NCBI GenBank assembly: GCA_903813345.2
Contig: CAIIXF020000007.1
Span: 2,425,730 to 2,489,729 of the forward strand
Direction of reading: 5' to 3'
DNA from: Owenia fusiformis
Taxonomy: Eukaryota > Annelida > Polychaeta > Sabellida > Oweniidae
DNA: 64,000 nt
Below are positions 9,961 through 42,216 of this stretch, piece by piece; the first letter of the stretch is position 1; the number at the start of each line of letters is the position of its first letter. Under the pieces are notes generated by a model that searched no databases, was not told where the DNA came from, and saw only the letters and a program-made list of their open reading frames with translations. A program made the position numbers and the translations under genes.

Positions 9961-12900
9961 TCATCTGCAAGATTTCAAAAGTTTTCGATGCAGTGTACCA
10001 CCTATTGTCTCGAATAGTTTTGAGTCTTTGTGTGATAGTAACTCTTTGTCTTTCGTAGCATCATACCCTATAAAATAATATTATTTAGTTTACTAATTAG
10101 TAATTAGTTTACTAATTAGTAAATGTGAATTATGTTCTTATACTTGAAAATTCAAGACAGTAATGTAAATTTTTTTTTTCAAAATGTGACCATTTTCTTA
10201 CCTTCATGAAGCATCATTTGAATCAGTTCAGGTTTAGCTCTGGTTGGCCCATGTAGTATGTGATATAGTGCCGTTTTGCCATCAGACGACGTCTTGTTCA
10301 CGTTGCAATGTAACGTCATCAGTAAACGTGCCACGTCATCACTTCCGTTTTGCACTGCGACCATGAAAGGATCTTGTACGTGGTTATCGTTGCTGTCGAT
10401 ATGGGCACCTTTTATAAAACAGATCAGTCAGTGAATAGTACAAGTAAAACGCATATACGCTTTTAACTTTTTTTTGATTTATTTATCTAATACAATTATT
10501 CGATACATTTACTACATTCAATATAACATTTCAATACATTCAATACAACAAATCAATATATTTGCGAAATCCAAAAAACACTTTTTAATACTAGGTACGC
10601 TGGACTATACTAGGTGTCCATGAAGTTGCTTTACACGTTTCACAGATTTTGAATTGTATTTGTAGAGACGTTATGGACACCTTGTATGTGTAATTTAATC
10701 AAATAAGTCGATTAAACTACAAATACTATAATGTATCAGTTTCTCCACCACGTTCCCACTCACCTGCTTCAATGATCATCCGAGTGATTAGCTCATAGTC
10801 ATATTTCGTAGCTATACAGAGTGGCGTCTCACCTCTGATATTGGGCATGTTAACACTAATGTTACCTGCAAAGTAAACGATCATCGGTCATCTTATTGTA
10901 CAGCGCAGTCACTTGGAAATTATCCTCCGTTTATTCCTTAATTTGTTTTCGTCAGGCGACTGCGAATTACATTGTTATTTAATAGTTTTTAGTTTTTAAT
11001 TAAGTGTTTGAGTTTCGTTAACTTGGTACGAACATTAAAACTATCTTACTGAGATTGATTTATTGAAATATATATGGACTAAGATTGTACCTTCTAAAAG
11101 CAATTGCACCATTGTGGTGTCAGCTTTCTCCACTGCTTCGTGAAGGGCGTTATTACCATCAGCATCCCGGGCATTCTGATCACAGTCATGGTCCAAAAGA
11201 ATCCGGGCAATTTCATCCCTAAAAGTAAGACAGCTTTTGTTATCGCGAAATACATTTTCTATTTGAAACGTATGTATTAAATATAATATTCAATGCTTGG
11301 CACGACATTGCAAATTTCAGATTACTAAAACAGAAGTCATAACGTATAAAGCCATTGAGAGGGGACAGTAACTCTAAGGTACAAATAATATCTACTACAT
11401 AGATACAACAATGCTTAGGATATTTGGTCATAAATAAATTGAGTCCATTAACTGTCAGATGTAATCGTCCCCTATGGATAAATGCCCTGGTCAAGTCGGA
11501 TATAACATGATAAACAACTGTAAACAACTTCCTTAATAAAAGTGCTTCTTATCGACTCCTGAAAAAATAACAAGGGTCAATGACCGACCCATTATAGACA
11601 TTTACTCCACAATTAGGTTTTCAAATTTTCCTCTAAATCTTGTCTAAATATGCTTAACCTTCACAATGAAACAATATTAATTAAAGGCCTATATTAGTTG
11701 AAAAGAATGTATTTTTCTCACTTTTCTGTCTGCTATCCATTGGTGCGAATTACTGCATATTAATAGATGCGTGTGACAATAAAACAAAAGCTTTCTCAAG
11801 AAGGTTTCCCGAATCACATTTTTAAACTTTATATTGTTATTTTAAATAAACAATGTTCATCCAGTTAAACCAAGTAAAGATCAAGTAAATTACGTCAAGC
11901 TCAAAAAATCTCGAAACACGTTGAAAATGTTGTAATGAACAGATGAAGGTAAATTAAAAGAACGATCTTGACCAATTGAGAGAATGACTCATAAGAACAT
12001 ACTAGGTCTTTTGGACATGACAGAGTGCATGTAATGGAGCAAGCTTAAAGGGAAATTGGGAAAATGAGAAGCGAATCATGTCCAAAGGGACAATGAGCAT
12101 GAAAAAGACGTAACTACAATACAAATATTGATATTGAACCCATGATCTGGCAAATAAGAGATAACGGTCTAGAAACTTCATGATTGGAGAAAGACTAGAG
12201 AGATTTTTGAGTTACCTCCCATATCTCGCTGCCAGCAGCAACGGCCTTTCTCCGTTCTTAGATGTCCCATTTATATTACATCCTCCCAGAATTTGAAACA
12301 TAACTGTGCGTATATCATCCCTCTTTACAGCAGTGCAACACCGGGCGATTGAGATCTTTTTATCTTCAGGTGACAAAACGATTTCCTCGAAACAGCTATC
12401 TATAGACTCAAGCCTGCTCGGTCTACTAGCTTTAGCTTTGGGCTTTCGTTTCTCTGCTGGTCCATCTACAAAGCAACTATCACTGGACTTTCCTGATGCT
12501 GAAGTGGTACCGGAGCCACTGGTGGAGCTAGTGCTCGCGCTGTTATCCGACCTTGCTTGGTCCGCCACCGTTTGGGCCAAGGCCTCTTGTGTATTTCTCA
12601 GCCATTTACATATGTCATCGAACTTGTCACTACGAAAGTTGATAGATGGGATCTCCCCAGGGTGGGTAATTCCTGTTTTGTTATCTCGTGTTTTTGTTTT
12701 TTCGCGGTGTTTCCTAGAACGTGATTGCTGCCTTTCATCTTTACTGGGCTTATGCTGCCATAAATCTCGAGACTTTTTGGACTTATCTTTTTTCTCTTTC
12801 TTTCCAGTGTTTTTATCTTTTGTTCCTATATCGCGTTCTTTTGATTCTACCCTGTTCTTTTTTCCTCCAGAGCGTTCACGCTTCCTTGACGCCAGCAGTT

Positions 12901-13438
12901 TGTCCTTCAGAAGGAACCGTTTAATATCGTCCTTGGCAGGGGTCGCTTTCAGTATTGGCCGTGGTATGTTAACATGAGGAACAATCAAATTGGGATCGCT
13001 GGTGGAACGTTTAATTCCTTTAGCATGGGGAATATCACCGGGACTACTGCTATCATCCGAAGGTGTGTTCCCGCTGTACACAGCATTTGCCGAACTCTCA
13101 TCGGGTTCATCACTGCTCGTTTCTGACTCGTCATCTTCATATCGCCTTGGTGATCTGCGGTTGTGGTAATCATTTAAGATATCTCTTTCCATATCGTCCG
13201 CATCGAACGGATGAAACTCAGCATCGTAGGAATATTGATTAAAATGGTGATAGCTCCAAGTGGCTGGTGTAGGATGATTGATGTCGTCGTCCCCGTATTC
13301 CCTATACATTTTATTCAGATCGTCATCACTCATACACTGCCTCATATAATACTCATCGGCGTCCGACTGGGAATGCCGACGCTCTCCGTGCCAAAGTTTA
13401 GCAATGATTTTGTGAATCAAACGTCCCATCGCTGCCAT
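9961..13438 (-). CDS. Ankyrin-repeat protein with a charged disordered N-terminus (five exons)
   Basis: The exons, in transcription order, are 13438-12216, 11218-11091, 10865-10764, 10408-10202 and 10067-9961, with TGA at 9961-9963. All borders are GT/AG and the phases match throughout (AG|G, then three G|GT or G|GG glycine junctions at the ankyrin loop). The product is about 588 aa. After the N-terminal domain come ankyrin repeats starting at NGERPLLLAARYGRDEIARI, then DADGNNALHEAVEKADTTMV, IRGETPLCIATKYDYELI, DPFMVAVQNGSDDVARLL and DGKTALYHILHGPT, and a short tail ending LHRKLLKSCR. Ankyrin stacks bind protein partners. I do not recognise a specific orthologue. There is no signal peptide or membrane segment, so it is probably cytosolic or nuclear. 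The first ATG of the frame (13438) was chosen; ATG 13429 is an alternative. Confidence 0.85.
12216..13438 (-). CDS. First coding exon of the ankyrin gene (disordered N-terminal domain)
   Basis: This exon encodes about 407 residues. It opens with MAAMGRLIHKIIAKLWHG, a short amphipathic start. An acidic, Tyr-rich stretch follows (ADEYYMRQCMSDDDLNKMYREY), then a Ser/Asp-rich linker. Next is a strongly basic Lys/Arg tract (about residues 185-255: KKEKKDKSKKSRD, SRSRKHREKTKTRD) that could serve as nuclear localisation or nucleic-acid contact. A Ser-rich stretch and the SRLESIDSCFEEIVLSPEDK segment precede the first ankyrin repeat. The frame is open beyond the ATG to about 13486 without another ATG. 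The antisense 223-codon ORF here is a shadow. Confidence 0.85.
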
Positions 13439-16400
13439 ATGGTGGATCACGTCAAGTTTAGAAGAATTCACTATATCGGATGACAAGTTGAAGTGAATGC
13501 AAAGGTCATTAAGATTAATTACTCTAAAGATTGGCAGTTATTACTGGCCATCGTGCCTTCCAGTTGTTTTTAACAAGTTTGAAGATGATTAATTTGCAGT
13601 GTTTAACTTTACCCTATTTATCTTTGATAATTAGTATTTTCTTAGTAATTGCCTAAATTGCGACATTCAATGTGCTCTGCTCGGGTTGTTGACATAATCA
13701 GTGGTAGAGGATTTCAACAACGGGCAAAACAACAATGTGAACGACATATATAAATGTCTCAATAATTGCCCCCTTGGGCGCTTTATATACTGAAGCAAGA
13801 ACTCTTTTAAAACAATCATGATGTCATAATGGGGTGTTATCGATCGTCTTTCTTAATCCCAGTACATTATATCATACAGAGGAAGATGCACGCGTCTTGC
13901 TGACCCATATATATTATATCATTTTCTTTATTTCCCATTTAACTTTGAGTACAAACATAAATGAACAAAATACATAAGCACGATCATATGTTATAATGTT
14001 CGTGCCTGTCCACAGAATAACCATCCTTTATGATAAACCATGACCATGGCTCATTTCTTCCAAGCCCTGAGAAGTCTCAGGTGAAACAGAAAGATGCTAT
14101 GAGTATCAGAATGATCCTAGTACCTGTATACAAAAGTGCGAGGGCGTTAAATGTCCACTGGGAAATATTTTGAACTGACACTGATTTTTCGTTCGTGTGT
14201 CTCCTCTAAGGATGGGTGCTAATGATTGATGTAAGTCTAACATGATCTCTACCAATTTACATGTAGCTGCGTCTCTCATTGTACATGACATGTGTCTTGT
14301 TACTTCAGTCAGTTCGACTGAACATGATATTACTCTACGTGCCAGTAACGATTCGCCATAGACCGGAGGTTGTTGCATGATATTGATGTGTAATGGCAAC
14401 GACAGGCTGTCGCATTAGCCAAAATAATGCCAAATCTCTATGTGTCTCTCGCTTATTTTACACGAACCAATTTTCTTATGAATTCTATTTTCTTGATACT
14501 TTGCGTTGGACTAAACTTTGAACATGTCAACATCGAGTATTGATATCCGAGTATTGATTCTTATATCACACGATACAAGAAATGTTGAATCTGGGAAAAC
14601 GGGATAAGCACTTTGTTTGATGATGTTCGATCATCTTCGATCCTTCCAAAGTTGCAATATTTCTCCTCCTGTCATGTAATCTACGTACATGTATGCAATA
14701 AACAATAGGAAAACAAGATCCTCATTTCAGAAGATAGGACTAATATTTCTGAAGTTGCATTGGTTCAATAGTTCTTCAGAAAGTCGGATTGATACTTGGG
14801 TACTTTACTTGGAGGAAATATATATTTATATTTTGATGAGAAATATCTAATTTATAGCATGGACCTCTATAGAAAATAAGATACGATAAATAATACACAA
14901 TTCGAAAAACGCTGGCTGTCACAATGGACCTCTGTCCATACTATTACGGTAAACCACTGTATTAGTGGCATTTGAAAGAATGGTAGACCTGAAAGACCAG
15001 CTAAGAAGTAAATCCGAATCTAATAAACCTACAAGTAACGTGAGCTAATTGTTATTTCAATTTGATCAATTTGTTTCAATTGGAATTTGATTAAAGATAA
15101 TCGTATTGGATGCAAATGAACACATTTGAGAAAAATAACATTGTAACTTGGATCTCTTTATCATGAATAAAATCCGATCAACTATGCTTATTGAATAAAA
15201 TTGACTTAAATCTGAGTCATGCATTTTCTACTAAGATTTACCTTCATCACAATGTTTATAACAGCGTGAGTTCTATTTGAGATGGCATTTCGACTTGCAC
15301 GGTTGTATTAAGTTGAAAAAAGAAAGCTTGAAAAATAAGATGATGTCACACAAAAATTAGTAAATTCCCAAAAAGATCGATCTCAATCATAAGATTAATT
15401 AAAGGAAATAACTAATATAACTTTGAGGCGGGCTACAATAAAACAACAGATTATCTACGATTTAAATACTGTATGTCGACATAAAATGAATATATTTAGA
15501 AATAAAGATTACATAACACGTGTTTACTACTACTTAATACTTAAATCCGATCAGTGATTTTATTGTGAATTATCGGCTTACCCGACTTTGACAGAATACC
15601 CATATGAATTGGCAGAACCGAAACTCCAAGACGACGATGGCAGATCTTGTTGAATCCAGCGGTCAGAAAACTTCCTAAGAAGTTCAAATGGGTATGCTTT
15701 GTTAATCCATATCCGTCAACACGAAACAAGAAAGAAAAGAACAATACAGAGGAATTCCATATATATTTACAAGGAGGATATGGGCATATTCAAAGACCGA
15801 GACTTTAAACCATCGCCAGTGCATGTAAGACGTAATTGGGTAAGTTTAGATGTCCCTTCTCATTTTTAAAAGTGAAACCATGTGAATCAAGATGTGTTAT
15901 AGCTCTTATATAAATGAATGCGTCGCTGTTAAAAATTGATTCATGGGAATGACAACATCTATTTGGTGTTGATTTTAAGATATCACAATTGTCTTTATAA
16001 ATGTGTCATTAATTGTCTGTTGGTTGTTTTGATTTTAAACGCAAACAATGTAGATACACATGCTAAACGGCTTACACATATCGAACAAACTCTTGCTTAT
16101 GAAATGCACATACAGATTGCAGAAATAACTTTAAAGCTCTAATAATAGCATGTTCCATGTTCAGAAATTTCAAGATAACCAAACCGTAATTTTAAGTAAT
16201 TCTGTCACGAACATAAATCTGACACTCGTAACTAATGATTATAGATAATGAGCGTACGATTGCATAGGATACCATTGTTATGTTCTATTACCACTAAGAA
16301 CTCTCAGCTATAATTAATGCAGAAAAATAGAAATAATGTTTTCTCCTAATATTCGGATATACGCCAGGGTAAGTGTATACTAGCTAGTATTTATAGCAAA

Positions 16401-18580: not shown

Positions 18581-20074
18581 ATGGAAGAAGACGTAGACAA
18601 AGATAATGCTACGAATAAACTTCTTCCGCAGAAGGAACACATTGAGGGCGACGACCGTCAAAACCCAGTAAAGTCCCTCGTGAATAAACTATCGCGGAAA
18701 CCACTGATGGACTACAAACTAGCGTCCAGGCCTCCAATTTGGAAATCAACCAGAACATATTCTCCATTTCTGGGGAAGGTAATTTCAGACAAAAGTCCAA
18801 AGAAGCCAGTTTTTAGCACAGCCTTAAAAAGCTACCCGAAACGTAGACCCTACCCGCAAAAATTACTTTTTGAAAAATATAGCTATTCAAAAACTTCTGG
18901 GAAACAAAAGTTGAACGAGGGAACTGAGGTACCAACGCCGAGTCCTGGGAGCCATGAATATGCCCTCCCATATTTGGACAATAATTTAGAAGGTCAACGG
19001 AATGTACAAGATGTTGTGAAATATGAACCTCATGATATCGAACTTGGAAGTGAAGCATCGCTTTACATTGAAAAGAGGGTAAATAACCCTTATTTGGGCA
19101 ATTTCATACATACGATTCATGGACTATCAAATAACAAGCGTACACAGGATGTAACAATTAACACCAATAATCTTAAATCGGGTGGGACAATGGAGGCCAT
19201 TGAAAAGGTAAACACATTACTTGATGATCAAACAGAGGGTGTTCGATCTGCCGAGACATCTAAAGGTTCAAACAATAGTAGTCAAGGGCACAATTCATTG
19301 CATAATAGTATCAAGTCTTGTCCCCCTGATGTAGAGAATGCAACGAATGCCATAAAATTTCCTACTGTCCCTTCTCGTTGTGTCCCATCGGCATCATCTT
19401 CGCGGAGTCGATCACACCGGAAACATTCCAGACGAAGAGAATGTGAACCACATGTAGCACTATTTTCAAGGATGTCATTGGAAGCCAAATATGCAATAGC
19501 CACGGCAAAGAAAAATCAAGATAACTGTCGTAGAGACTTAAATGATCTGGACAGTGTTGGAAACACAGAAGGGCAACAAATCGTAGAAAATAAAGATGAT
19601 ACGGGTAATAATTTTGCTGACGACAATCATAGTACAAGTAAGCCAATGAGCATAATTATGCGTAGAAATACCCCCGCTTCAACATTAGAACTCAAAGACA
19701 ATGAACCTGTAAGATCTCGTGCAATATCTCAGTCACGTGATGTCCTCCGCGAGAGTTATCCATCGGCTCGGACTTGGACAAGAAAGACTCTCCTACCGAG
19801 TATCGGATCCGGGTCCCGCTACAATTCAATGGAGGAATTAAGAGATGTGGGCGGCATGTCTCAGCGTAACATTCCAGGAGTTGGACAGTTCATGATGGCT
19901 ATTGGTTCTCGCGAGAACAGCTTTCAAATCACGCCTATTGGGTATGATTCCCGCTATGCAGAAACACAGTTACAAGAGTTGAAGCAGAGGGAGAACAGCG
20001 CTACTGAGTTCGATGCAGGGATGACTAAAATTGCACATAAAAAATGCAATGAGTGGTTGAAAAAGTATCATTAA
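18581..20074 (+). CDS. Uncharacterised single-exon gene, paralogue of the 31.7-kb gene
   Basis: A 497-codon ORF opens with ATG at 18581 (MEEDVDKDNATNKLLPQKEH), and an AATAAA at 20104-20109 follows 30 bp after the stop. The protein is hydrophilic and mostly disordered, with Pro/Lys/Tyr-rich N-terminal text (ASRPPIWKSTRTYSPFLG) and a Ser/Arg stretch (SSSRSRSHRKHSRRRE). Two segments are shared with the minus-strand ORF at 31655-32605: SRMSLEAKYAIATAKK (about 296-311) and the C-terminus FQITPIGYDSRY (about 448-459) ... HKKCNEWLKKYH (486-497). I do not recognise the family. There are no membrane segments. Conservation of both motifs at matching relative positions in a second gene argues that it is a real protein. 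Confidence 0.75.
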   Translation: MEEDVDKDNATNKLLPQKEHIEGDDRQNPVKSLVNKLSRKPLMDYKLASRPPIWKSTRTYSPFLGKVISDKSPKKPVFSTALKSYPKRRPYPQKLLFEKYSYSKTSGKQKLNEGTEVPTPSPGSHEYALPYLDNNLEGQRNVQDVVKYEPHDIELGSEASLYIEKRVNNPYLGNFIHTIHGLSNNKRTQDVTINTNNLKSGGTMEAIEKVNTLLDDQTEGVRSAETSKGSNNSSQGHNSLHNSIKSCPPDVENATNAIKFPTVPSRCVPSASSSRSRSHRKHSRRRECEPHVALFSRMSLEAKYAIATAKKNQDNCRRDLNDLDSVGNTEGQQIVENKDDTGNNFADDNHSTSKPMSIIMRRNTPASTLELKDNEPVRSRAISQSRDVLRESYPSARTWTRKTLLPSIGSGSRYNSMEELRDVGGMSQRNIPGVGQFMMAIGSRENSFQITPIGYDSRYAETQLQELKQRENSATEFDAGMTKIAHKKCNEWLKKYH

Positions 20075-20103
20075 AAATATAATTTAACATAATTAAATTT
20101 TCA

Positions 20104-20109
20104 AATAAA
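20104..20109 (+). terminator. Candidate poly(A) signal AATAAA
   Basis: It lies 30 bp after the stop of the 497-aa ORF and 52 bp before the start of the large TIR transposon. Confidence 0.5.
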
Positions 20110-20160
20110 TAATCTAAAATCTAACTTTGTGAGTTACTGAATTCTACCATCCCCTACTAA

Positions 20161-22295
20161 AGTAGCGGTCACACTAGCCGTGTAGGCTCACCGTTCGCCA
20201 CCGTGTGGCTAATTATGGCCAGACGGCGGTGCACGGTATGGCCACACGGTGGGTCGTTTCCCGCCCGTTGAGAAACGTTCAGGGAACGTTGCCGTCCATC
20301 CACACCCGGCGAATTTTTTGAGCATGCTCAAAACTTTTCCCGTTTGAGTAACGTTCGGTTGCGAACGGTGATAGCGGTACGGGAATGGTATAAGGACGGT
20401 GCGGCCGTTAAGAACACGTTCGCAGAGCGGTAATGGGACGATGGTGGACGTTGACTCTATCAGTGACGGGCTGCGAACGAGAGTGTACCGCTTGGGTACC
20501 GTCCGATAAACGAGGTTCAAACGGGGTTTGAAAGGTCACATAAAAAGGGTTTTCACGGTACCAGCCGCTTAACGCTTAGGTAACAGTCCATTAACGTGTT
20601 AACGGCCTTATAACTGCTCCATAACATCCTCTAAACATCCTATTACCGTGAACTCGCAATTGTACCGCCTCGTGACGCAGTGTTGTCACCGTGTTCTGCC
20701 GTTTCAACAGTTTTGCCTTCAGTTTATTTAAATATTCAGGTATTGTCCAAGGTTTTGTCCCGTAACTCGAGACATCAGATCAATTCTTCGACTTTCTCAT
20801 TTGTACTTTGAAGCCACAAATCCACTCAAACCACTTTGACAGAGATTCTTTTGAAGACACTGAGAAAAACAAGTTACAAATATATTTCTTTTATCATACA
20901 CGAAGAAAATAAATAAATTGCAAAAATGATTAAAGCTCAAATAAAAGTGAAAATAAATGTCCAGTTAGCATTATAAGCCAAACTTCGAACTATCAACTGT
21001 TTTATGCATTTTACGTGATCTTTCTGTTCACGTTACCGTCCATCAAAAAGTTGTGAAAGCTTTATTTCTCATTTACACGACCAATTATATAAGAAAAAAT
21101 TAATAGGGTGGAGGAAGAGCCGATTTCTGTCAGAAAATTCAATAAAACTGCAATATTCATGTTCATGACAACTTAACGTTCACCCATTAATCCCTTAATG
21201 ATTAAGCTACGGTATAACAAAGATGTGAAGTCTTCCGTGAATTTTCGAGTGATACCCTTCTGAGTTATTCGATTAATTTAAAAAGGCGCGACGTCACCAG
21301 CGTGCAAAAAGTCAATATTTTTTGGTATATAACTCAAACGACGCAGGTCTAAGACCTGTAATATATACGTTGACGCAATTATCACAAAATATATGTAGTT
21401 GCCGTTTTACAAAACGTTATAAAAATAATATAAAACACCGCCGTCTTTTTTCGAAATCAAATAAGATTTGGCATATTTTTTATTAGTGATTCAATAAACT
21501 GACTTCAATTCCAATTCGAGTACAGTTCACTTCGAATCCCTCCATTTTAACGAGGAAAAATATTTCTAAACGTTGGAGGGGAGTAAAGGTTCAATCTGTA
21601 CCTTCCAATAACGCTTTGCGTAAAATGTAATGTCAAAACAAATAGTTACCCCTCAGAGCAATTAGTTTCAAAACGTATAGTAAAAACGTAAAACGTGATA
21701 TGGTCGGATGAAATATAGATATTGCATGTTTGTCTACCAAAATTGGTCAAGTTCTCGAGACCTATTCATTTTCAACGTATTTTCATGGAATAAACATACT
21801 AACTATTACAGAGAAAGACTTAACTCGGTTGACCCAACTAGCTGCTTACAGGATGGACAAGCTATGTGGCCACACTGTACATTTAAATATAGACAAACTT
21901 GTAATGTTATTGAACATAATTAAGATGTATAAGCAAATTAATTATATAAATCATTTAGCTTTGAACACGTGGATGGTTGAGCATACATTCCAAAAAGTGA
22001 GTTAAATATTGTGAGCGTTTGCATGACGCCATCAAGGCGGTTCGGCCGATATCCAGGCGTTCCGGCCGGTGTCAACCTGGTGAGGGGATGGTATGCACCA
22101 GTTGAGAACACGGCGAGAACGGTAAGCAAGAATTCTGAAACACGGTAAGTCCGGTACAAGGCCGATGAGAAGCCGGTACAGACCCGGAATAGAACGGTAT
22201 AGTCCCGGTCAAAAATGTATAAAAACAATGCGGCCGTCGCCGTCTGGCCAAACGGTGGCGAACGGTGAGCCTACACGGCTAGTGTGACCGCTACT
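20161..22295. mobile_element. Harbinger-like non-autonomous DNA transposon, 2135 bp
   Basis: The ~44-bp termini are perfect inverted repeats starting AGTAGCGGTCACACTAGCCG and ending with its reverse complement CGGCTAGTGTGACCGCTACT. They are flanked by TAA on both sides (20158-20160 and 22296-22298), a 3-bp TSD typical of PIF/Harbinger. About 400 bp inside each end is dense in ACGGT/ACCGT motifs, such as sub-terminal transposase-binding repeats. The 1.3-kb AT-rich core encodes no transposase, and the short ORFs across the GC-rich ends are artefacts. It was inserted 87 bp downstream of the 497-aa gene's stop. Confidence 0.88.
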
Positions 22296-23041
22296 TAAGC
22301 GCCAATAGCGCCTCTTTAATGTGTACACACGTTGAGCATCTTTTTATTTGCATTAACTGTAAAGAAAAAACTACTTGTAGGGAGAAATGTTAAATTGACA
22401 TTATTTCCAATACCTCCATTTTTTCTCAATTTCTGCAACAGTTAAAAAAGGTCAGAAATTATTGACAAATCTAATGAATTCTTTAAAATCGATTTTCTAC
22501 ATAAACGTACTTTTTTGTTGAATCTACTCCTGAACAGATATCCAAAAATCTAATTTGCCATTTCGTGGTGGTTTACATTGGACTGACGATTTTCAAAAAT
22601 TCATTAAGTCATCAACGTTCAACCTGTTGTTATTCATGAAAAAGTTAGGAAAATTTGAAGGTGGGGAATGAAGTCAAGTTATATCTTCACCTTTATTTAA
22701 GTATTTTCATTGTAGGTTATGTAAATAAAAATTCAAACACGTAGTCCGATGGGAGAGCTACGGCTGTCAAACTTTTGAAGGGAAGTGTATTATTTAGCCC
22801 TGTACACACAACTGCCATCTATTTGTGCGTTTAGAAAGTTAATCTGGAAAAGGGTGACATCTTTGCAGCTTTTCTATTTCTTATTCCGTTTTTTTAATAG
22901 TTTTAAAAAGAAAACGTAGTATAAAGAAAACTTCAGAAACCAATATGTCATGAGACCTCTCGCAAAAGTTATAAATGTTTCATTTTCCTTCAAGCATACG
23001 ATATAGCAATTTCACTGAGTATTTACTGAAAGGAAATACTA

Positions 23042-23667
23042 CATGGTGTACTGTATGCCCCCCCCCAAGGTAGACATATACCAATGTCTCCATAGTATGT
23101 GTCATATATCATTTTGAAGCTGATCCAAAGTTACATTTATTTGCTAAGTATCATGGTTCAACTCAAAAACGGAAAAAAAGTTACAGGCATTTCAGTGTTT
23201 GGCCAAAATAAAAGTTCAGTTTTACAACAGAGTAATAGTCGGTGTGTCTCCCAAGGCCATGTTGACAGCAGCAATTCTTTGGATATGCCGTTAAAAGTGC
23301 CTCAAATATATGTGTGTGGCGCGTGTATTTTGTAATCCTCATAAAACATTTTCAAAGCATTTTAGAAGAGTTTCGTTGGAGTAGTTGCTCTCATGATCAT
23401 TTTTTCCAACTAAATATCCATCCTACCTTTGACGATAACACCCATATTTTCAGTCACATTCAGGTCAGAACTGTTTCAAGGAGACTAAACTGAACTTAAA
23501 TTTGGCCTAACACTAAGTTTTGAAATGCTTTTCCAGATTTGTGAGTTCAACCATGATATTTGGCAACTGAATGTAACTTTGGATAAGCTTTGAAATAATG
23601 TATGACATATACTATGGAGACATTGGTATATGTCTGCCTAGGTGGGGGATACTTTCGGGACACCCTG
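23042..23667. mobile_element. Tc1/mariner-like MITE, 626 bp
   Basis: The inverted arms are about 95 bp: a shared core GGTAGACATATACCAATGTC on the left, matched at the right end, which finishes CGGGACACCCTG before TA. TA dinucleotides flank both sides (23040-23041, 23668-23669). The CAGGGTGTCCC-type end is common in mariner-type elements. The left end is degenerate (poly-C expansion). No transposase is present. Confidence 0.8.
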
Positions 23668-26367
23668 TACAATCTGCTATCAATTTGACTGATTGAGAAG
23701 TGGTTAGTGGTTCCTTGAAGTTAATCAAGTCAAAAAAGAGAGAGTGTACTTCTCGATGTCCCATAATGAATAATGAATATATTTCTCTCCAAAATGAGTA
23801 CTTGTAGCGCTATTCTCAAACTGTAATATCATATATCAAAATTTCACTCATTTATCCTTTTTTCTGGAATAGCCTACCTTCCTCCCGATTTGTCCGGCAA
23901 TCATCATGCAGGTTTCTTCTCGTTCATTTTTCGACAATTCTTCTATTTCACATTTCGAGTTCTTCTCTAAAAAACTTACAGAATTTCATAATAATTTTAA
24001 AAAATTTGTTCAACTAACATCTGCTGAGTTTCACCGATTCATTCTCTTCATTCCTGAACACTTTCCCCCCAAAATCAACACGTGAAGTAGTTGTTAAGGA
24101 AAAATGGGGAAGAACTGCATGAAAGAAAAGCGTAACAGTGAATACCAGATGAGAATTGAATAAAGTATCGCAATTCACAATGAATTTTAATCATTTCCGG
24201 AAAGTTATATGATTAAGTATGGTAAACTATAAAACGGTGGCTTAGCCACAATTCAAAAATAGGCGAAACAAATTGGACAAATTAATAGTAGATGGGGCAT
24301 AATTTATGGCAAAGATGATATTATACTTCTGTTCTAAAAATGTTTAAAATGTTTTGGCGAGGAAGATGCGTCGCTCGCCTGGCCTTGTATCGAGCATCCT
24401 TCTTCAAATGACTTCATTTATGCTTAAATTCATTATGGAAAGAAGTGAAATACCCTAGGTCCTTGGACCAATGATGTGTATCTAGCTTCCTCCACGATTT
24501 CCATTTTATTCTATCAAGCAAATGCTTATGAGCATGACTTCTCCCTACAAAGGTGTGATGAAATTCGGATATTTGGCTGGAAAGTCGATTAGAGATTGAA
24601 CGATGTGAAGTTTACGTTCATGAATTGAATCCAGCGTGAAAGTTTGGAATCAATAGATGTATTTGAGTAACATCAAACCAAGGTGCTTGTCGGAAACACG
24701 TGTAAACCATACAGAAGTAATGAACCTGCAATTTTAGCTCTAGTTCAAAAGTTGGCAGCACATGTTCAGGGGTAATTAATATTTATTTACACAGTCTATC
24801 CTCATATCAAGTTTGTTTGTTTTGACAATATAATTCAATTAAAAATGTATCGAGTAAAATTGTGGAAACACTTGGGTATGTTTCGAATTTGAGATTTTAG
24901 ATTCGGTATCAATTTTTGTATTTCCTTTGTCGGGTTTCCTGTACCTTCCTGACTTTTACCCATTAGAAAAAATGAAAAATGGATTAGCATATGAGTTGAA
25001 GATTTAAGTCGAATTATCCTAGACAGTAGGATATTCAAAGGTAGCGTACTCATAAACGTTTTTTGAAATAAGGTTGTTACGATTTTCCCAAGTCTACGAG
25101 TAGTAGCAAAATAACGCATTTTAGAACACCTAAAATACACATCTAAATTCTCCAATGTTTTCACTTGCTAAAACACATATGAGCTCCTTCGTTCACCATA
25201 AATCAAGAGAATCATGAGCACCATAAATTAAATGGCTCATTTCTTCAAGTTGTTAAACTGAGAAGATAAACTTATAGCTTTATTATCAGCGCACCACTGT
25301 TATTTGTTATCTTTATCAGCGTCTGTAGAAACAATCTAGGCCCAATCCTTAGCAAGTTGTCCTTTGAGATTCAAAAACTTGGAATATTTTGTTCACAAGT
25401 GAAGGTGTGAGAAAACCACTGATGAAATATACATCATACGGGAATAATACATCGTTGATGTGAGATCGCATATCGGCGCTAAAACACAAGAAAATGTTGG
25501 GAAGGAACCAATTGAAACGATGGTGCTTTCTTGCTTGTCATCGACCGTCATTACTTAGTGTCAGCACCCTGGTTAAAAGTCATATGTTAAACATTGGGTC
25601 CAGGAAACTCCCCAAAGATCTCATTAATTGAAATACGTACTAGAACAACATGAAACGCTAGCTCTGCTTTATTAAGCAAAAGATAACATTCAAAAGTCGG
25701 TTTCGAAAGGCCACGATAATCAAATTTGAATTTGGTGTCAAATGTTTCATTTGGCTTTGATGCTGTATTGGAAGATGATAATTAGATAGCAATTAATGCA
25801 GCTGTTTGGTTGAAATACATGATATCAATAAACTGGCAGAGAAACAAACAAACAAGCAGATTAAAAATCAATTTATTTAGCGATCTACAAGCAATGTAGT
25901 TCTAAAATACAAAAGTAATAACACTTAAGAGAAACTATTGCTTTTTATACAATTCCAAAAGTTACAGTGGTTAAATGATGTGAACCACAAATTCTAACAT
26001 GCGTTTCCCTGGTTACCTTTGCTAACAACAGCTGGTTGCCATGCAGTGTAATAAATCCTGAAAGTCTAAGAAATCTCCACAGTGAGCTTCTCAGTAGTCA
26101 GTGCAAGTGGATACAGTTGAACCAACAACTACCAAGTTTGTCTATTTTCATTAGGTGAAAATAACCAAATATACAATTAGTGACTACATGATCTGAATTC
26201 TATGAAGTATCGAACACTGATATCAACTTCATAAGCCATATGTACAACACCTAGGAAGGAGAAAAGCAAGCTTTAGGTTGGGAAACACTTAAATAACAGT
26301 ACGTGTCCTAGACCAAGTGACACAAACATTTTGCACTTGAATATACTTTTTTAAATTTGCGGTTGCT
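23668..26367. other. Intergenic, upstream of the bHLH gene
   Basis: I see no gene. A 109-codon minus-strand ORF at 24835-25164 has no recognisable feature. The last kilobase may hold regulatory sequence for the bHLH gene, but no TATA box or conserved site can be claimed. Confidence 0.3.
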
Positions 26368-26844
26368 ATGGCAACGAAGTCGAAATATATTCGAATGGAG
26401 ATGAATTCGTATGATAATAGAGACAGTGATTCAGATGGGAGTAACGATAGAGTGAATAGGGGTGGTAGAAAGCAAAGACAACGACAGAATAATAGTTCTA
26501 ATACTGGTAATGTTACATTAGACTCGAATGGGAAGGTGATACGAGGCAGCGCTAATGCCCGGGAGAGGGACAGAACCCATAGTGTAAACTCTGCCTTTGT
26601 TACTTTACGTACATTAATACCTACAGAACCCGCCGATAGAAAATTATCAAAAATTGAAACACTTCGCTTAGCAACCAGTTACATTTCACATCTGAATACT
26701 GTGTTGATGATGGGGGGCAATGCGTTTGACCAGCCATGTTTAAAACATCAGTTGATGTTAAGGAGGGACGGCACCACTCAACCAAAAACAGTGTGCACAT
26801 TTTGTATGGCTGCTTCGAAAACAAAACAGGTTTGTAAAATATGA
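26368..26844 (+). CDS. TCF15 (paraxis)/scleraxis-type bHLH transcription factor, first exon
   Basis: A 158-codon ORF starts at ATG 26368. The bHLH domain spans about residues 61-116: basic region [13 protein letters not shown], helix 1 [14 protein letters not shown], loop ADRKLSKI, helix 2 [20 protein letters not shown]. The wording [29 protein letters not shown] is diagnostic of the TCF15/scleraxis group. The tail [16 protein letters not shown] matches the CTFC motif after the bHLH of paraxis-type proteins. The N-terminus is acidic/Ser-rich. Family members act as nuclear E-box-binding heterodimers with E proteins in paraxial mesoderm, somite and tendon programmes. A CAG|GTTTGT donor at 26829/26830 lies just before the stop, where paraxis genes usually have an intron. 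The true C-terminus may therefore be in an exon I could not identify, and VCKI is then read-through. Confidence 0.88.
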
Positions 26845-27904
26845 ACTGGTGCGTTGATTCTTCTTAAAATATGATATATTTACGCATTTGCACAACATAC
26901 CTATTTTAATTAAGCATAAATCTACCAGTAAGGAAACGAAAATTAAGAATCTTAGGTGGATTTACCGATATTTTTATAACTCAGTTATCTCCTTCAGGCC
27001 ACCAATGCATATATTTTACCATTTTTATCGTGACAATTTTCGACTCATAACGTCCACCTGTGGGCTATCACTCTCATATTACAGAAAACCAGAATCAATT
27101 TCTTGGTTTTCACTATTTATGGCAAACCAAGAAGGTCAATTAATCTTAATAACAGAGTCGTTGACATATAGGGCGAATGTTTCAGCGCTGTGTAGGTCAA
27201 CGGGCAGCTGAGAAAAAACAATTATTTTAGTATTTGACTTATCGTAGTAACTCACCACACATCATTCCAAGATGCCAAATACACTTAAACTGATTTATTG
27301 TGTGTACATTCATGTAAACCCTAGTAATACTGTTTGTAAAAGTCTGCTAGGATACCTAACATCATATTTTAAATTTTGTCATTTAAAAAGTCGTCATTTC
27401 GCGCCGTCATTCAAGTCTACACTTACGACGGTAATAGTTCAATCCTTGGTCCAAGGGTATTCCAATTCATTGAAATGGCACAGTGAATGCCCGATCTTCA
27501 AGAACGATGACAAAGTTCTGTTATTAAAGAACATTCCAAAAAAATAAAATTCACGTGTTTTAGAACCAACTGTATGAATGATTTAACGTTCTTCGAATAT
27601 TTGCTCACATATTTTTCGATCATCGGGATTTCTTTGTCGAAACAAAATTACAAGTAGTTTTGTAAGTCATCTGAAAATACAATGGTACGTTGTCTATTTT
27701 GATAGGATAAAGTTGCTGAAGGTCTTGGATCAGTGTTCGCCATAGCATCTCAAATTTTACACAAATCATTGCATTTCAGTTCTATAAATCACCAATACAT
27801 GTTTTTAATTTATGGAATTTAATTAATTCGTTGGATTTGCAAACCGTGCATGCAGTAATGTATAAATAAAGGTGGTAGCACCGACATCATAAGATGTTCG
27901 AACG
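26845..27904. other. Region downstream of the bHLH exon, no gene identified
   Basis: Two ORFs of about 90-107 codons (26888-27211, 27272-27547) have no recognisable domain and look like chance ORFs. A second bHLH exon may lie here or further on; none could be picked confidently. Confidence 0.3.
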
Positions 27905-27907
27905 TAA

Positions 27908-28483
27908 CCCTACTATCACACCAAACTAGTTCTTACTACGTTCTCGAAAACGGGCTTAAACTGTGCACGAACGGATTTGACGTACTAAGAACCCACTAAA
28001 AACCGTTTGGGATCTGTTTACAAACTTCATGAAACTACTAGAACGAGTAGGTCCTCCAGCACTTAGAGCATGCTCAAAGTTTTCTGGTGATCGTCAAAAC
28101 GTTGCCGAATCGGTTTTAAACTGTGTGCGAACTGAATGAACGTAGCTACAACGTTCTACGGTCTGTTTACGAACTTCATGGACTTTCCCGGACGGGTTAT
28201 GTGATTTAGAATTTTGAATCGATTCAAAATTCGATGGCGACCATACCGTTCTGTAATCAGGTCATGATGACCTTCTAGACTAAGGGACAGTTTTTACTAC
28301 GTTGCACACCGACGTGGTGCGACCTGAACGAACTGCGAATGAGATGGACGTATTGAAGACTGTTTATGAACGAAGTAGCTAATTATTTTAGACATATATC
28401 CCGACCGCAGCCAGATTGAGCCCGTTTTACGACATTTTCGTAGGGCAAGAACGTTTAGGAACTAGTTTGGTGTGATAGGGAGG
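27908..28483. mobile_element. TIR element, ~576 bp, with CTATCACACCAAACTAGTTC ends
   Basis: The inverted termini share CTATCACACCAAACTAGTTC (about 27912 and, inverted, about 28458-28477) plus weaker matching to ACGTTCT. The interior is rich in AACG/CGTT motifs, as in sub-terminal repeat arrays. It resembles the 20161 and 57111 elements in having TCACAC near the tip. Exact ends and TSD are unclear (TAA on the left, TTA on the right). Confidence 0.7.
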
Positions 28484-28489
28484 TTAGGC

Positions 28490-31400
28490 GAGGAGGTTGT
28501 CTTCTTGGTGATACTTTAATGAATGAATAATGAAATGATTCTGCCTACGTGTCAATGATACTATTTTGTGACATTATTTGAGGGTAGCGTAATTTTGAAT
28601 GAACCACATTGTATCAAAGTATCACCGTAAGCCACACCCCTGCTCTTACCCATATGGTGAGAGACAGATGATAGACAATTTGGTATAATCAAAATGAACG
28701 AACACATGTTCACACACATTGGCTTCCGCATATATAATCTTATCAATAATTAACATATTAAAACGTAACAAGATACATCATGCGTGTACCCATGAGGTAC
28801 AATTATGCATTAAGTTGCAACGTTGGGAAAGCAACGTTCCCTTTATCAATGTTATCGCTACGCTCAGCTGTTACTGGCCATCTCGTAGAAATGTTTTCAT
28901 GACAGGAAAATGCTTCTCTAAATATCAACATATCCTGAACACATGGTGTTAATAATTTAGTGCTGTAGATAATTTAGTGAAAACAAATCACTTCCTTATT
29001 GTTTATAGTAAATTACTAAGTTATATAATTTTGTTTTGTAAACACCGAAATTGGAAATTTTGTTTTTTTATTTAGAAGATTGGGGCCATACATACATACC
29101 TGTTTGAACTTACATGTATTTTGTGTTTTCAACATTATGTAAAGAACTATTTTAATTAGTCTAGTTCCAAGCCCTTAGCAACCTCGGTGTGAGGTGTTTA
29201 GTCGAGTAGGACAGTAGGAGAGGGATCACAGAGGCTTGTAGCTAGGCAATATTTTAATATGAAATTCAAAGAATGTACTGCTTCAAAGCTGAATTTAGAT
29301 GGGCCAAATATGAAATATATTCGGCAACTTATTCAAATTAGGAAGACCAATTATACAGTACAGTACTAAATGCAGAACCAGATCTATATGGAATCACTTT
29401 GTAAGGAAGGAACATAGTTCACATACCAATGTATTCCTTACCATCCTGAATATAATATCTCCCAAAGGATACATGACATGTTGTGAAGTTGTTTAAGTTT
29501 GAAAGTGCAAAATTTAAAAATTTTAATTTTCCTAAATGATAAATACTTGTATGTTTATATATTTTAAAAAATGAATGCATTATTTTAAACCTCTTCTGTA
29601 TTTCTGTATACATAGTATACATTTTGCTTTTTTAGAAAACACGACAAGGAATGAAATAAGTATTCTAAAATTGAGGCAATTTTTGTCTGACAACTTCTTG
29701 CCAGCTTGCTAAACTTGATATTCCTTTAAGTATTGTTGTTTCGTTTCGTTTCGTTTACAGGTCCCTCTAAATTACTTTTAATTACAGTCAAGAATAAAAT
29801 CCTGCGATAAACAACGTTTTTAATGCAAATATTCCGATCGAATTTTTGAGTTTAGTGATAAAATATTTTCATATAATTTTGGTTTCAATTTACATGGAAA
29901 CAATGGCGGATAAATCCATGATGCTGTTCCTTTTATGTTTCAAAAAGCTTCATTCAAAATTCCAGAATTTCGAGAAACAGATGTTGATGCAATATTTATA
30001 AAAAAAATCTCATATTGCTTCCTTCAATCCCAAGCTACACTAATTACAGAAATCTCAAGTTGATCGTTTACGTATCTAATTATATCGCACTTATTTTTAC
30101 TTGAGACCAATAAAGATAAGAGAAAATGGCAGTTCCAGAAAACGGTAACTTGATAAATTGGAGGCTAAATACTGGAATAATGACATTGAATACACGTATA
30201 GTATGGAAGATCGGAGCAAAACGGCACTTAGGTTTTCTATAAGTTACCGTATTCAATGACGCACGCCATTTACAGTTATCAGATGTAATTCAAAGAATTT
30301 TGAAAGAAAATTGAAAAGTCTGTTTCATAATTTTGGAAGAGATTTCCAGGCCCCTTAGTTATATCTGTCATACCTAATGGACATGTAGAGGATACATATT
30401 TATAGATATAAAGAGTGACTTAAAAAAACTAATATTAACAATTTATTTCTGTAACATTCACATTTAAAAATATTATAGTCATCATAACATTATAACCTGG
30501 GCCCAGGAATACTTTATAAAATGTTTAAAAGTGTTCTATTGTATACTCTCATACTAATCTGAGTTATCATATTTTGATACATTTTATTCTTGCATTCCCG
30601 GGCCTCGATTTATAACCGTTTTCCCCAACCCTTTTGGGTTATATCCCGGAGGGTTATATGCTAACTTTGTGCTTCCAGATGCGTCCTGAAAGCTGTATGT
30701 ATAAGGACATTCGACCCGATGATCTATCAATGCAGAACATATTCAGACTTGGCACCTGACCTTGACATTGGGATGAAACAAGAATTTGAACCTAACATTA
30801 AGTGTTGATGGCCTGGAGTACTGGACAATGGAATGCTGGGTAAAAGTCATCATGCATTTAAACCATGTCGCGACCCGGTCTAGAACTCTTAAAATAGTTA
30901 CCTTTCTGCCCCATTTGACTGCTAAAGGGACCTTTTTCAAATACATGGAATCATAGACATGGAACAAGCAGTGATATTTTATTCTTGTGAAGAAAAACGC
31001 ATTGGCCTCAGTTAAAATTGCACCGGTCAGTACACTTGAAGCTTACTGAAACAGTCAGTGGTACATTTGAATTAGATAAAATAGTGCCATTGGAGAAACT
31101 GGGGTCGACGCTATTATTGACAACGTTTAAACGGACTGTATTCATATAATCCTATTGTGCATTTTCACATTGCATTTTCCATTCTTTATGTAAAACGACT
31201 TTTAAAATTGAATTAAATTATAAACTTCAGTAATGAAAAATAAAATATTTAATACAAAGACATGAAAAACATTATACGAGTATAACATTTGGACAGGTCA
31301 CGTATTTTTTATTAGAATATTGCCTGTAATACGTTGGTGTTTACCGGGATCATCGAAGGGCGCAACATGAGCACCGATAGGTGGGATAGGCCTGAAAATT

Positions 31401-31654
31401 GACATGATAATTAGTTTCCATTTGGTCGGAAAGAGTCTACTTAAGTTTTGTATGTTTGGCCAAATGACTCTTTTGAAGGCAACTTGGCGAACCAATAACT
31501 CAATAAATCCAAGTATTTGCCAATTAAAAACATAATAATTCAAAAATGATAAACGGTCGTTGTTTATCAATTTGAATAAAGTACAAATATATTTTGTTTT
31601 AATATGAATTATTTAAGTATCAAAATAATACTTTGAAAAAGCCTTCGAACCTGG
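28490..31654. other. Intergenic region, no gene identified
   Basis: The region has only short ORFs. A (TTTCG)n microsatellite sits at about 29738-29757, followed by TTTACAG. An AATAAA on the minus strand at about 31309 could polyadenylate the gene at 31655-32605. Confidence 0.3.
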
Positions 31655-32605
31655 TCAAAAGTTTTTGTTTAACCAATCTCTACATTTTTTCAGCACTTCC
31701 TGTCGAACGACATATTCGGATTTACGTTCCGTCATTCTGTCGTTCACGACCAGAACTGGCCATTGTGGAGTGAAAAAACGTTCATCATAAACCTGGGGAG
31801 TGATCCTAAAATCTCTTTCAGAATCATCAAAAACCCGTTTTGGGCGTTTAGTATTGCTTTGTATTAGAGCTTTAATCCTAACCCTATCCTGGTCACCCCC
31901 GTGTGGGACACGTTCGATGTTTCGTAAACAATTTCCATTTGAATTTTGGAACTGCTTTGTTGTTGAAGTTATGGATTTCTTCATCCATGCGTTGCCTGTT
32001 TCAGACAACCGTTCCACTCGACCTTTATTGTTTAAGATGGTCAACTCATTTCTGTTCTGATAGGTTACTTTGACAACATTTGATGGAGCTGTGGGTCGGG
32101 AAGCTTTCACAACACATGTAGCTGATTTGCACGGTGTGATTCTTTTATACGAAGCAGTATCATTCCATTTACAGAGGTTGTGATCCATACGTTTTGGAGT
32201 CCGAACAGCACCACATGATTTCGATCGCGATCGATCGTGTTCGGGGTTTCTTTTCGGATTCCTGTGAATTAGTAATTTCTCAGTTCCGCTGATAGTCGCA
32301 CGATGTAGGCCCATATCCTTTGTTTTAATGTCATTGACGTTGTTCAATAAATCATCCCTATCGAGTTTTGGAACATTTTTTACTTCATCAACCGCTTCTG
32401 TTTTTGTGCAATGACTTTCATGTAGCATTTTTTCATTCATGAGTTGCGCCATCGCAGTTTTTGCCTCTGGAGACATAGGTCTAGTAATTTGGAAGCGTTT
32501 CCGTTTTACTGCTTGTAACGTCGTTAATCTTTGCACAATTAATCCATTTGAACATGATTTCAAAGTCTCATTTTCAAAAAGCTGCGAGTTTAGTTTTCTT
32601 GACAT
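31655..32605 (-). CDS. Uncharacterised single-exon gene, paralogue of the 18.6-kb gene
   Basis: A 316-codon ORF starts with ATG at 32605 (MSRKLNSQLFENETLK). Its shared segments with the 497-aa ORF are ITRPMSPEAKTAMAQLMNEK (about 40-59, versus SRMSLEAKYAIATAKKN) and the C-terminus DFRITPQVYDERF (about 265-277) ... LKKCRDWLNKNF (305-316, versus HKKCNEWLKKYH). The middle is basic and poorly conserved (HDRSRSKSCGAVRTPKR). There is no signal peptide or membrane segment. The linker between the first motif and the C-terminal motif is of different length in the two genes. Function unknown. Being intronless, like its paralogue, could reflect retroposition or an ancestral single-exon state. Confidence 0.75.
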   Translation of the reverse strand: MSRKLNSQLFENETLKSCSNGLIVQRLTTLQAVKRKRFQITRPMSPEAKTAMAQLMNEKMLHESHCTKTEAVDEVKNVPKLDRDDLLNNVNDIKTKDMGLHRATISGTEKLLIHRNPKRNPEHDRSRSKSCGAVRTPKRMDHNLCKWNDTASYKRITPCKSATCVVKASRPTAPSNVVKVTYQNRNELTILNNKGRVERLSETGNAWMKKSITSTTKQFQNSNGNCLRNIERVPHGGDQDRVRIKALIQSNTKRPKRVFDDSERDFRITPQVYDERFFTPQWPVLVVNDRMTERKSEYVVRQEVLKKCRDWLNKNF

Positions 32606-32874: not shown

Positions 32875-33660
32875 CACTGGTGATCCACTCGATTACGCTG
32901 GTTACCGAAACGGTTCGTTTTGGTAACAAAATGTCGGAACGTCAAAGGTACGATTTTTCTTTTTTCCTTATTTCACGCGTTGTAGGCTGAATCCCCACGA
33001 CGTTTTTTCTCACAAACGTATATCAGTATCATATGTTTTAGAAAATGTTCATGGTTGCGAAAAAATAGCTCAGAAGACAACAGAATCGTCGATTTAATTC
33101 CTCACTTAGTTACATAAACGGTTTGGGTTAAAAGTGCATCTATGTCTATATAATCTGCAAAAGGCTAATGAGCCCATATAAAGCAGATATATGATTTAAC
33201 AGTGATAGAATTTGAATAGAATGTAATTTAAAACCTTAACATTTAAAAATAGATCTATGGTTTACAACTCATTTTAAAATTGAAAGGAAGCTTCCTGGTT
33301 GGCCCCTGTACCCCCCTAGGGAGTCCCTTTATGTTGAAATACCCTGGGGCGACTGTCAGGCTACCGCGTTGACATCACCCCTCTTTACCAGTAGTGCAGG
33401 CTTGTTGCTTAACTGTTTTCGAAAAACCGTTTATGTAACTAAGTGAAGAATCAAATCGACGATTCTGTTGTCTTCTGAACTATTTGTTCGTACATATGTA
33501 CATTTTCTTAAACATATGATACTGTTAAAAAATGTCGTGGAAATTCTGCCTACAACGTGTGAAATAAGGAAAAGAGAAAAATCGTACCTTCGATGTACCG
33601 ACATTTTGTCACCAAAACGAACCGTTTCGGTAACCAGCGTAATCGAGTGGATCACCAGTG
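32875..33660. mobile_element. Foldback TIR element, 786 bp, ~260-bp arms
   Basis: Termini CACTGGTGATCCACTCGATT and its inverse begin arms that match for about 260 bp (32875-33140 against about 33410-33660). The flanks AGAAA (32870-32874) and AGAAA (33661-33665) suggest a 5-bp TSD. It encodes no protein. A second copy lies at 37544-39118. Confidence 0.85.
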
Positions 33661-40533: not shown

Positions 40534-42216
40534 TCATGTCTCTGACATAATATAAGAGGTCATAAGTTTCGGGAGTCCAACTTCTCTCATTTTTGCCTCG
40601 AGGTTTCTTTGACCAACTAATTTACGAATGTTGTCCCGAGTAACTTGTTGCAGAGAAGGGAATTCTCCCATTTTCATTTCTATGAAACTCTTAATTCTAG
40701 CCCAGTGTCTAACACTTTCATGAGATTCTTTGCAGTTGTTAAGAATTTTAGCAATAATTGGCTGTGGATGAGACCAGATAGAAAGCAAGAATTCAACACA
40801 TTGGAAATTCTCAGAGAATACAGCCACTTCAAATATTGAGAATAGTTTGTTACATCTTGTATATATATCACAACCATTTTCAACCAGAAGCTTCAGACAT
40901 TTCAGATGGCCATGTGCTGATGCAATATACAGGGGTGTTTTGCCTTGGTGATCAACTTGATCTAGATCAATTGTAGTATCACGAATAAGATAGTTTAAAA
41001 CCTGCTGGCTGTTGTGCTTGACTGTCTCGTGAACTATGCTAGTCTTTGAGTTATTGTTACATTCTATATCCACCCCATGATGGATGAATAGCTTTAATAT
41101 GTTTACATCATCTTGCTCCACGGCACTGAGAATCGCCTCTCCTTTGTACCAACTTCGAGGGATATTAGAACCTCTCAATAAAAGGAGTTCAACAAGATCA
41201 CACCTTCCTTTATGCGTTGCTAAGATTAGGTAAGTTTCGCCCATGAAGTTCATAATTCTATTAATATCGCATCCGAGGTTAATCAACGCTTCTACGATTG
41301 CTACAGAACAGTCTCGGGTAATTGCTACATAAAGAGGGGAGTATAATACGTCTTTTACTTCAACTGCAGCTTTGAACAGCAATTTACAAAGCTTCTCATC
41401 ATTTTTCTCAAGTGCAATTCTCAATGGGGTTGACAGAACCTTATCTCCTTTGTTAACATCGCAATTGTGTCCAATTAGCGTTTTGATAATTTTGAGTGAA
41501 GCATCGTCTTCCTCATTTATTTGCCTGCTATTACAAGCAATGGATAGAGCAGTGCGACCTTCGGATGTAAGGAGGTCCACATCTATGTTGTCAGATTGAA
41601 GGAGAACTTCAACCACCTCCGGCTGTAAGGTCATAGCAGCATCATGTAGTGCAGAAATTTTCAGAAATGGATCAGATGCAGATACAGGGCTATATAAAGT
41701 GTTCGCAATGCAGCCGTGCTCGACCAGATGTTTAATGATAGTAACTGCTTCGGTATAAGTAGCATCCTTTGTGTTTTGGGTGTTCCATATATTCCCTTGG
41801 AAATGTTCTAAATTGATTGTATAATTAATTTCCTCCTGATCCTTCATATATTCGTTAGCATCGGCCGTGTAATGCATTGTTCTGGAAATATCTGGCTGAC
41901 AATTCGCAAGAGTACAAATTGTCCTATCTTTACAAGCTGAGGCCATTGATAAAGCAATCTGTATTGGAATCATTTGATTATTATCGATCATATTCGGACT
42001 AGCTCCATTCTCTAGTAGGACCTTCACGATCTCCGGGTACTGTAGTTTGATCGCATAGTAAAGAGGGCTCTGATCCGAGGCGCACCAGTGGTTTGGGTTT
42101 ATCCCTCCAAACTTGATCGCTTGTCTCAACGATGCTGTGTCGTTCCTCTCAATATATGAGAATAAAACTTTTGGTGTTGACATATCGCTTGTGATTACTT
42201 CGTTTGTCTTCAACAT
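40534..42216 (-). CDS. Ankyrin-repeat and SOCS-box (ASB-like) protein
   Basis: A single-exon 560-codon ORF starts with ATG at 42216 (MLKTNEVITSDMSTPKVLFS). Ankyrin repeats fill most of the protein: DQSPLYYAIKLQYPEIVKVL, ISALHDAAMTLQPEVVEVLL, EGRTALSIACNSRQ, LSTPLRIALEKNDEKLCKLL, YSPLYVAITRDCSVAIVEAL, GETYLILATHKGRCDLVELL, HQGKTPLYIASAHGHLKCLK. The last ~42 residues (FPSLQQVTRDNIRKL...VGLPKLMTSYIMSE) fit a SOCS box: SLxxxTxxxI as the Elongin B/C-binding BC box and GLPKLMTSYI as a degenerate Cul5 box (the LPxP proline is replaced). ASB proteins are substrate receptors of Elongin-Cullin5 ubiquitin ligases in the cytosol. A ~60-residue insert without clear repeats (about 110-165) follows the second repeat. 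The specific ASB orthologue cannot be named. Confidence 0.85.
   Translation of the reverse strand: MLKTNEVITSDMSTPKVLFSYIERNDTASLRQAIKFGGINPNHWCASDQSPLYYAIKLQYPEIVKVLLENGASPNMIDNNQMIPIQIALSMASACKDRTICTLANCQPDISRTMHYTADANEYMKDQEEINYTINLEHFQGNIWNTQNTKDATYTEAVTIIKHLVEHGCIANTLYSPVSASDPFLKISALHDAAMTLQPEVVEVLLQSDNIDVDLLTSEGRTALSIACNSRQINEEDDASLKIIKTLIGHNCDVNKGDKVLSTPLRIALEKNDEKLCKLLFKAAVEVKDVLYSPLYVAITRDCSVAIVEALINLGCDINRIMNFMGETYLILATHKGRCDLVELLLLRGSNIPRSWYKGEAILSAVEQDDVNILKLFIHHGVDIECNNNSKTSIVHETVKHNSQQVLNYLIRDTTIDLDQVDHQGKTPLYIASAHGHLKCLKLLVENGCDIYTRCNKLFSIFEVAVFSENFQCVEFLLSIWSHPQPIIAKILNNCKESHESVRHWARIKSFIEMKMGEFPSLQQVTRDNIRKLVGQRNLEAKMREVGLPKLMTSYIMSET

Follow-up and report, generated by a model that had tools for sequence, protein, structure and literature searches.

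Two Convergent Genes Flanking a bHLH Gene in Owenia fusiformis Encode Dissimilar Proteins with a Similar C-Terminal Tail

Layout of the Gene Pair

The window, which is the whole stretch of DNA analyzed here, comprises 64,000 nucleotides of one Owenia fusiformis contig (C7:2425730–2489729); genome searches covered 498 Mb in 525 contigs. Two genes, here called A and B, face each other within about 14 kb of the window, on either side of a bHLH gene (Table 1). The initial annotation had described this convergent arrangement, with a 497-residue frame on the plus strand and a 316-residue frame on the minus strand, and had placed the bHLH gene between them, and all of this was borne out by the coordinates, the strands and the profile match of the bHLH frame. 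Both ORFs are real, intact open frames. Measured from stop to stop, they span 506 (A) and 318 (B) residues. In 200 order-1 resamples, the longest ORF of the window averaged 143 residues and never exceeded 254. Given an acceptor-like CAG two bases before its start codon, gene A may have additional upstream exons. No tRNA was found within the window, and Rfam gave no match there.

Table 1. Positions of the genes, protein segments and candidate signals, counted from the first nucleotide of the window.
Feature	Position	Strand	Description
Gene A	18581–20074	+	ATG to stop, 497 codons, single open frame; pI 9.3; largely predicted to be disordered
M-S-L-E-A-K-Y-A segment, gene A	19472–19495	+	Not above chance alone; non-helical in the model
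C-terminal module, gene A	19913–20071	+	Residues 445–497: ENSFQITPIGYDSR ... helix ... KKCNEWLKK
AATAAA, candidate polyadenylation signal of gene A	20104–20109	+	30 nt after the stop codon; identified by consensus alone, surrounding DNA AT-rich
bHLH frame	26368–26844	+	158 residues, between genes A and B; PF00010, E = 4e-20
ATTAAA, candidate polyadenylation signal of gene B	31598–31603	-	≈52 nt after the stop codon; identified by consensus alone, surrounding DNA AT-rich
C-terminal module, gene B	31658–31819	-	Residues 263–316: ERDFRITPQVYDER ... helix ... KKCRDWLNK
Gene B	31655–32605	-	ATG to stop, 316 codons, single open frame; pI 10.0; largely predicted to be disordered
M-S-P-E-A-K-T-A segment, gene B	32453–32476	-	Residues 44–51; largely in a low-confidence predicted helix (46–59)

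Each gene also has a repetitive element close by. At positions 20157–22299, starting 83 bases past the stop codon of gene A, lies a 2.1 kb element whose inverted ends are 53 nt long and 96% complementary. The first 174 bases of this element have at least 42 matches in the genome, at least 40 of them near full length, with 91–100% identity (scores were computed for 40 of 165 candidates), and some of the copies on contigs C1 and C3 lie ≈2.1–2.2 kb apart in a tandem-like arrangement. About 270 bases upstream of the gene B start is an inverted-repeat, foldback-like element (32875–33660), with arms 147 and 104 nt long that match at 89%.

The C-Terminal Tails of A and B Are Similar

The two proteins had been proposed to share two motifs, M-S-x-EAK-x-A and a C-terminal FxITPxxYDxR...KKCxxWLxK. 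BLASTP of A against B gave an alignment of 52 residues with 31% identity (E = 0.002). When the last 60 residues of each protein were compared, the local score was 61 and the global score 45, neither of which was reached in 20,000 shuffles each, where the maxima were 49 and 18, respectively; the C-terminal motif thus aligned better than shuffled sequences. The aligned tails follow the pattern E-x-x-F-x-I-T-P-x-x-Y-D-x-R, then a variable stretch, then K-K-C-x-x-W-L-x-K near the stop. The 16 identities over 62 positions are spread along the segment, with one internal gap of a single residue and with equal distance to the stop codon.

As a control on real sequences, the last 60 residues of 96 ORFs of at least 100 residues from the surrounding 204 kb were compared in all pairs. 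The A–B pair ranked fifth out of 4,560 in both local and global score, and the next pair scored 21 (global) or 47 (local). Three of the four pairs that outranked it were found among ORFs at C7:2392604–2396087, where one ORF has the look of a tandem protein repeat; the fourth was formed by ORFs in opposite directions that flank a reverse-transcriptase frame; all four look like repeats.

The same was not true of the whole proteins. Shuffling equaled their local score of 61 in 42 of 3,000 cases, and a score of 68 was obtained with two reversed-sequence controls; the case for similarity can therefore be made only from the anchored C-terminal comparison. Judging from these alignments, the similarity between A and B is limited to the last ≈53 residues, and common descent of the two genes through this C-terminal module is well supported by the sequence comparison.

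The second proposed motif did not survive comparison with shuffled sequences. Over both protein bodies, M-S-x-EAK-x-A was equaled in 119 of 200 shuffles at a length of 10 residues, the best of four frame lengths, and in 187 to 200 of 200 at the other three. The 30-mers around the motif, which were picked by hand and post hoc, are each other's best match, and 288 of 20,000 shuffles were as good. With the last 60 residues removed, the bodies aligned with a score of 32, equaled by 978 of 1,000 shuffles; the bodies are without similarity and of unequal length. The initial annotation had called the proteins diverged outside the motifs and different in length. Given the common descent suggested by the tail, M-S-x-EAK-x-A may perhaps be a remnant, with no value as proof.

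Among the 62 aligned tail codons, differences fell at 24 first, 36 second and 42 third positions. Of the 16 identical residues, 7 have the same codon in both genes and 9 have different ones. Therefore, the identity looks as if it has been kept at the protein level and not by recent copying of DNA. It seems that the protein sequence of the tail was retained while silent sites were free to change, and the codon pattern, compared within the A–B pair only, hints at purifying selection on the tail.

Origin of the Pair

From the closeness of the two genes, it is likely that the pair arose through local duplication around the bHLH gene. When repeat pairs joining the surroundings of A and B were sought by ungapped search between positions 16000 and 36000, the longest among those listed was 29 nt at 72%, so that, at the sensitivity of such a search, no trace of a duplication is left in the flanks. 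This would also fit a different origin, in which A and B are unrelated and their tails became alike by convergence on one binding partner, without duplication. Convergence would likewise account for bodies and lengths that have nothing in common and for a conserved unit that is short. However, it would have to produce 16 spread-out identities in 62 positions, interrupted by one gap of one residue and ending at the same distance from the stop, in two uninterrupted genes that lie ≈14 kb apart. We consider such an origin unlikely, and convergence at neighboring loci seems less likely than an old duplication.

Predicted Structure and Composition

AlphaFold models of A and B were built from two-row alignments (two sequences) and are of low confidence, with mean pLDDT values of 36 and 34, respectively. 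The best-scored stretch of each model is a C-terminal helix, comprising residues 457–496 in A and 288–315 in B, where the last two blocks reached pLDDT values of 80 and 84 (A) and 67 and 74 (B). Other helices, all of low confidence, were predicted at residues 170–181 and 203–219 of A and at 23–33 and 46–59 of B. FoldIndex gave negative values for 37 of the 46 windows in A and 24 of the 28 in B. A and B are basic proteins with little predicted fold.

A has 16 RS/SR steps, a number reached in 9 of 2,000 shuffles, and B has 5 (786 of 2,000). K-[KR]-x-[KR] stretches are found three times in B, once in the tail, without excess (219 of 2,000 shuffles have as many), and are absent from A. The C-terminal 18 residues are not notably amphipathic, with values of 0.36 in A (8.8% of shuffles as high) and 0.25 in B (54%). 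Three IT(x)P words occur in B, one of them in the tail, and only 12 of 200,000 shuffles hold three. However, some three-letter word reached three copies in 2,974 of 3,000 shuffles of B, which takes most of the weight from this count; the three words are at most suggestive.

The FxITP step of the tail resembles the peptides, such as those of Apollo and TIN2, that dock onto TRFH domains and have the consensus FxLxP or YxLxP: in both cases, there is a hydrophobic-x-I/L-x-P step in a disordered tail. If FxITP were a docking site of this type, as in shelterin partners, A and B might be telomere or DNA-repair adaptors. The F/Y-x-I/L-x-P spacing does fit the consensus, but neither protein is enriched in the five-residue pattern, which occurs as many times in 505 of 2,000 (A) and 191 of 2,000 (B) shuffles, and alone it is at chance level. 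Furthermore, unlike the TRFH-docking peptides, the tail of A and B goes on to YDxR and the KKCxxWLxK helix. A search of the genome for a TRF domain gave no match, although this search had no working control. A TRFH-type site is the most improbable of the readings considered here.

Searches for Relatives

Neither protein could be assigned to a known family. As whole proteins, A and B matched no Pfam family at E ≤ 1. When six pieces were searched at E ≤ 10, a single weak match came up for each of three pieces; these matches fell under the family cut-off and had mutually unlike names (DENR_N, 0.071; NT_N, 0.054; Cas6_N, 0.12). NCBIfam had no match to either protein, PHROGs had one family for each at 0.065 and 0.064, which we regard as noise, and the PDB contained no credible match, the lowest value (0.07) being for topoisomerase III against a mixed tail with no stretch passing alone. 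Searches of viral contigs and of prokaryote genomes, the latter run without whole gene A, matched patterned stretches and returned no relative, and tblastn of the A tail against phages gave only matches at E ≥ 0.9. The initial annotation could not tie the motifs to a known domain, and Pfam at E ≤ 1, NCBIfam and the PDB still offer none. Its proposal of a real, undescribed protein family is supported in part, in that the frames are intact, the tail is shared and no family in Pfam, NCBIfam, the PDB or PHROGs was credibly matched; M-S-x-EAK-x-A falls away as a mark of such a family. A text search of the literature for the tail motif strings found no match, which carries little weight since papers seldom print such strings, and a search by topic found nothing on the A/B gene pair.

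Within the 498 Mb genome itself, each protein and each tail used as a query recovered its own locus and missed the partner gene, showing that searches with a single protein or tail are blind at the divergence between A and B. The B query gave one extra match on C1 (E = 0.03), to residues 141–225, in the body and not the tail, within an open frame of 8,849 residues. Mixed-tail queries recovered both loci, with E-values of 9.6e-20 and 3.8e-12 for the first query and 1.2e-19 and 3.4e-11 for the second. These queries detected no third credible copy in the genome, where an equally distant paralog might escape them. A two-row profile of the tail run over the 204 kb around the pair found only A and B, the next match having an E-value of 0.66. 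Two further matches of the first mixed-tail query, at E-values of 4.5 and 5.0, were rejected as lying inside reverse-transcriptase-like ORFs. The weak matches sit in two similar retroelements on C5 and C1, each with an upstream ORF.

Uninterrupted frames in a region that holds reverse-transcriptase frames, with a high-copy element beside gene A, might be taken for retrocopies or domesticated transposon genes. Against this, no transposon or viral family was credibly matched in Pfam, NCBIfam, PHROGs or the viral-contig scans, and the genome searches, blind as they are to distant copies, returned each gene itself plus the single match to the B body at E = 0.03. We therefore think it very improbable that A and B have such an origin.

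It is also possible, if somewhat doubtful, that A and B are a fast-evolving local version of a family known in other animals, in which case the function of that family would carry over. Short conserved tails on disordered bodies evade profile searches, the queries available consisted of one or two sequences, and three of the six pieces did have weak matches to Pfam, if below the cut-off. On the other hand, the whole proteins matched nothing in Pfam at E ≤ 1 and nothing in NCBIfam, and no PDB match was credible. FAM110 was considered as a candidate because human TCF15 and FAM110A are neighbors and FAM110 genes are intronless. The FAM110 proteins are disordered, with short conserved motifs at the N- and C-termini, and the likeness to A and B lies in the uninterrupted genes, the disordered proteins with a short conserved end motif and in the linkage to a TCF15-like gene. 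However, neither A nor B matched FAM110 (PF14161/PF14160), either as whole proteins (Pfam, E ≤ 1) or as six pieces (E ≤ 10). The genome has its own FAM110_N match elsewhere, on C1, with 25.5 bits (E = 0.005), over the family cut-off of 22.2 (the FAM110_N profile alone was searched).

The bHLH Neighbor

Among the three frames, only the bHLH frame matches the HLH family (PF00010). In its own genome, this frame has 24 matches at E ≤ 1e-5, a count that includes the frame itself; identity to the next three is 42, 59 and 62% over parts of the sequence. Its three best matches among solved structures are Twist1, TAL1 and NeuroD1. From the bHLH region and a C-terminal QPKxxCTFC stretch, we take it to be a TCF15/scleraxis-like gene. 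It is a linked neighbor between A and B and not a relative of either. This linkage is the most interesting part of the pair.

A Possible Docking Tail

The reading we prefer, with a probability of roughly 0.4, is that A and B are paralogs that separated long ago and have diverged strongly, and that their basic, largely disordered products dock onto a common partner through the C-terminal tail. Both genes have uninterrupted coding frames and would probably go back to a local duplication around the bHLH gene. Because a conserved linear segment and a helix are found on two otherwise unlike, disordered bodies, a shared docking tail is the simplest reading: with its linear motif and helix, the tail would serve as a docking module and would bind one and the same folded partner whether in A or in B. 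Reach, location or regulation would then be set separately for each protein by the unconserved bodies. At the T-P step of FxITP, proline-directed phosphorylation could act as a switch for docking, and the basic charge would make a nuclear or microtubule-bound adaptor plausible.

A more far-reaching version of the docking-tail reading, that the ≈53-residue tail defines an undescribed family and that the uninterrupted pair brackets, and is perhaps co-regulated with, a mesoderm gene of the TCF15/scleraxis type, strikes us as rather unlikely. As it stands, this is a plausible, ordinary-looking pair of uncharacterized genes. If orthologs keep the tail, it would be a new peptide-plus-helix docking module that could be followed through the animals, and its position next to a TCF15/scleraxis gene would allow the idea of a conserved gene block to be tested. 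If they do not, A and B would be an ordinary, lineage-specific and uncharacterized gene pair.

Other Elements in the Window and at Contig Ends

A telomere repeat was absent from the examined parts of two contig ends; the examined part of a third end was all N. Searches for COX1 and 7tm_6 gave no match at E ≤ 0.001, the latter lacking a working control. Within the window, on the minus strand at 7126–8652, a frame of 508 codons looks reverse-transcriptase-like by eye and lies between inverted copies of a shorter ORF. Two ankyrin-type genes were also recognized by eye on the minus strand, one a single frame of 564 codons (40534–42228) and the other made up of several exon-like pieces (10179–13537). 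Long tandem arrays occur at 52323–53810, with a 145-nt unit, and at 58550–58908, with units of 42, 102 and 18 nt; the latter units lie within an open frame and give rise to a protein repeat of the LRPSGPLPTQ type.
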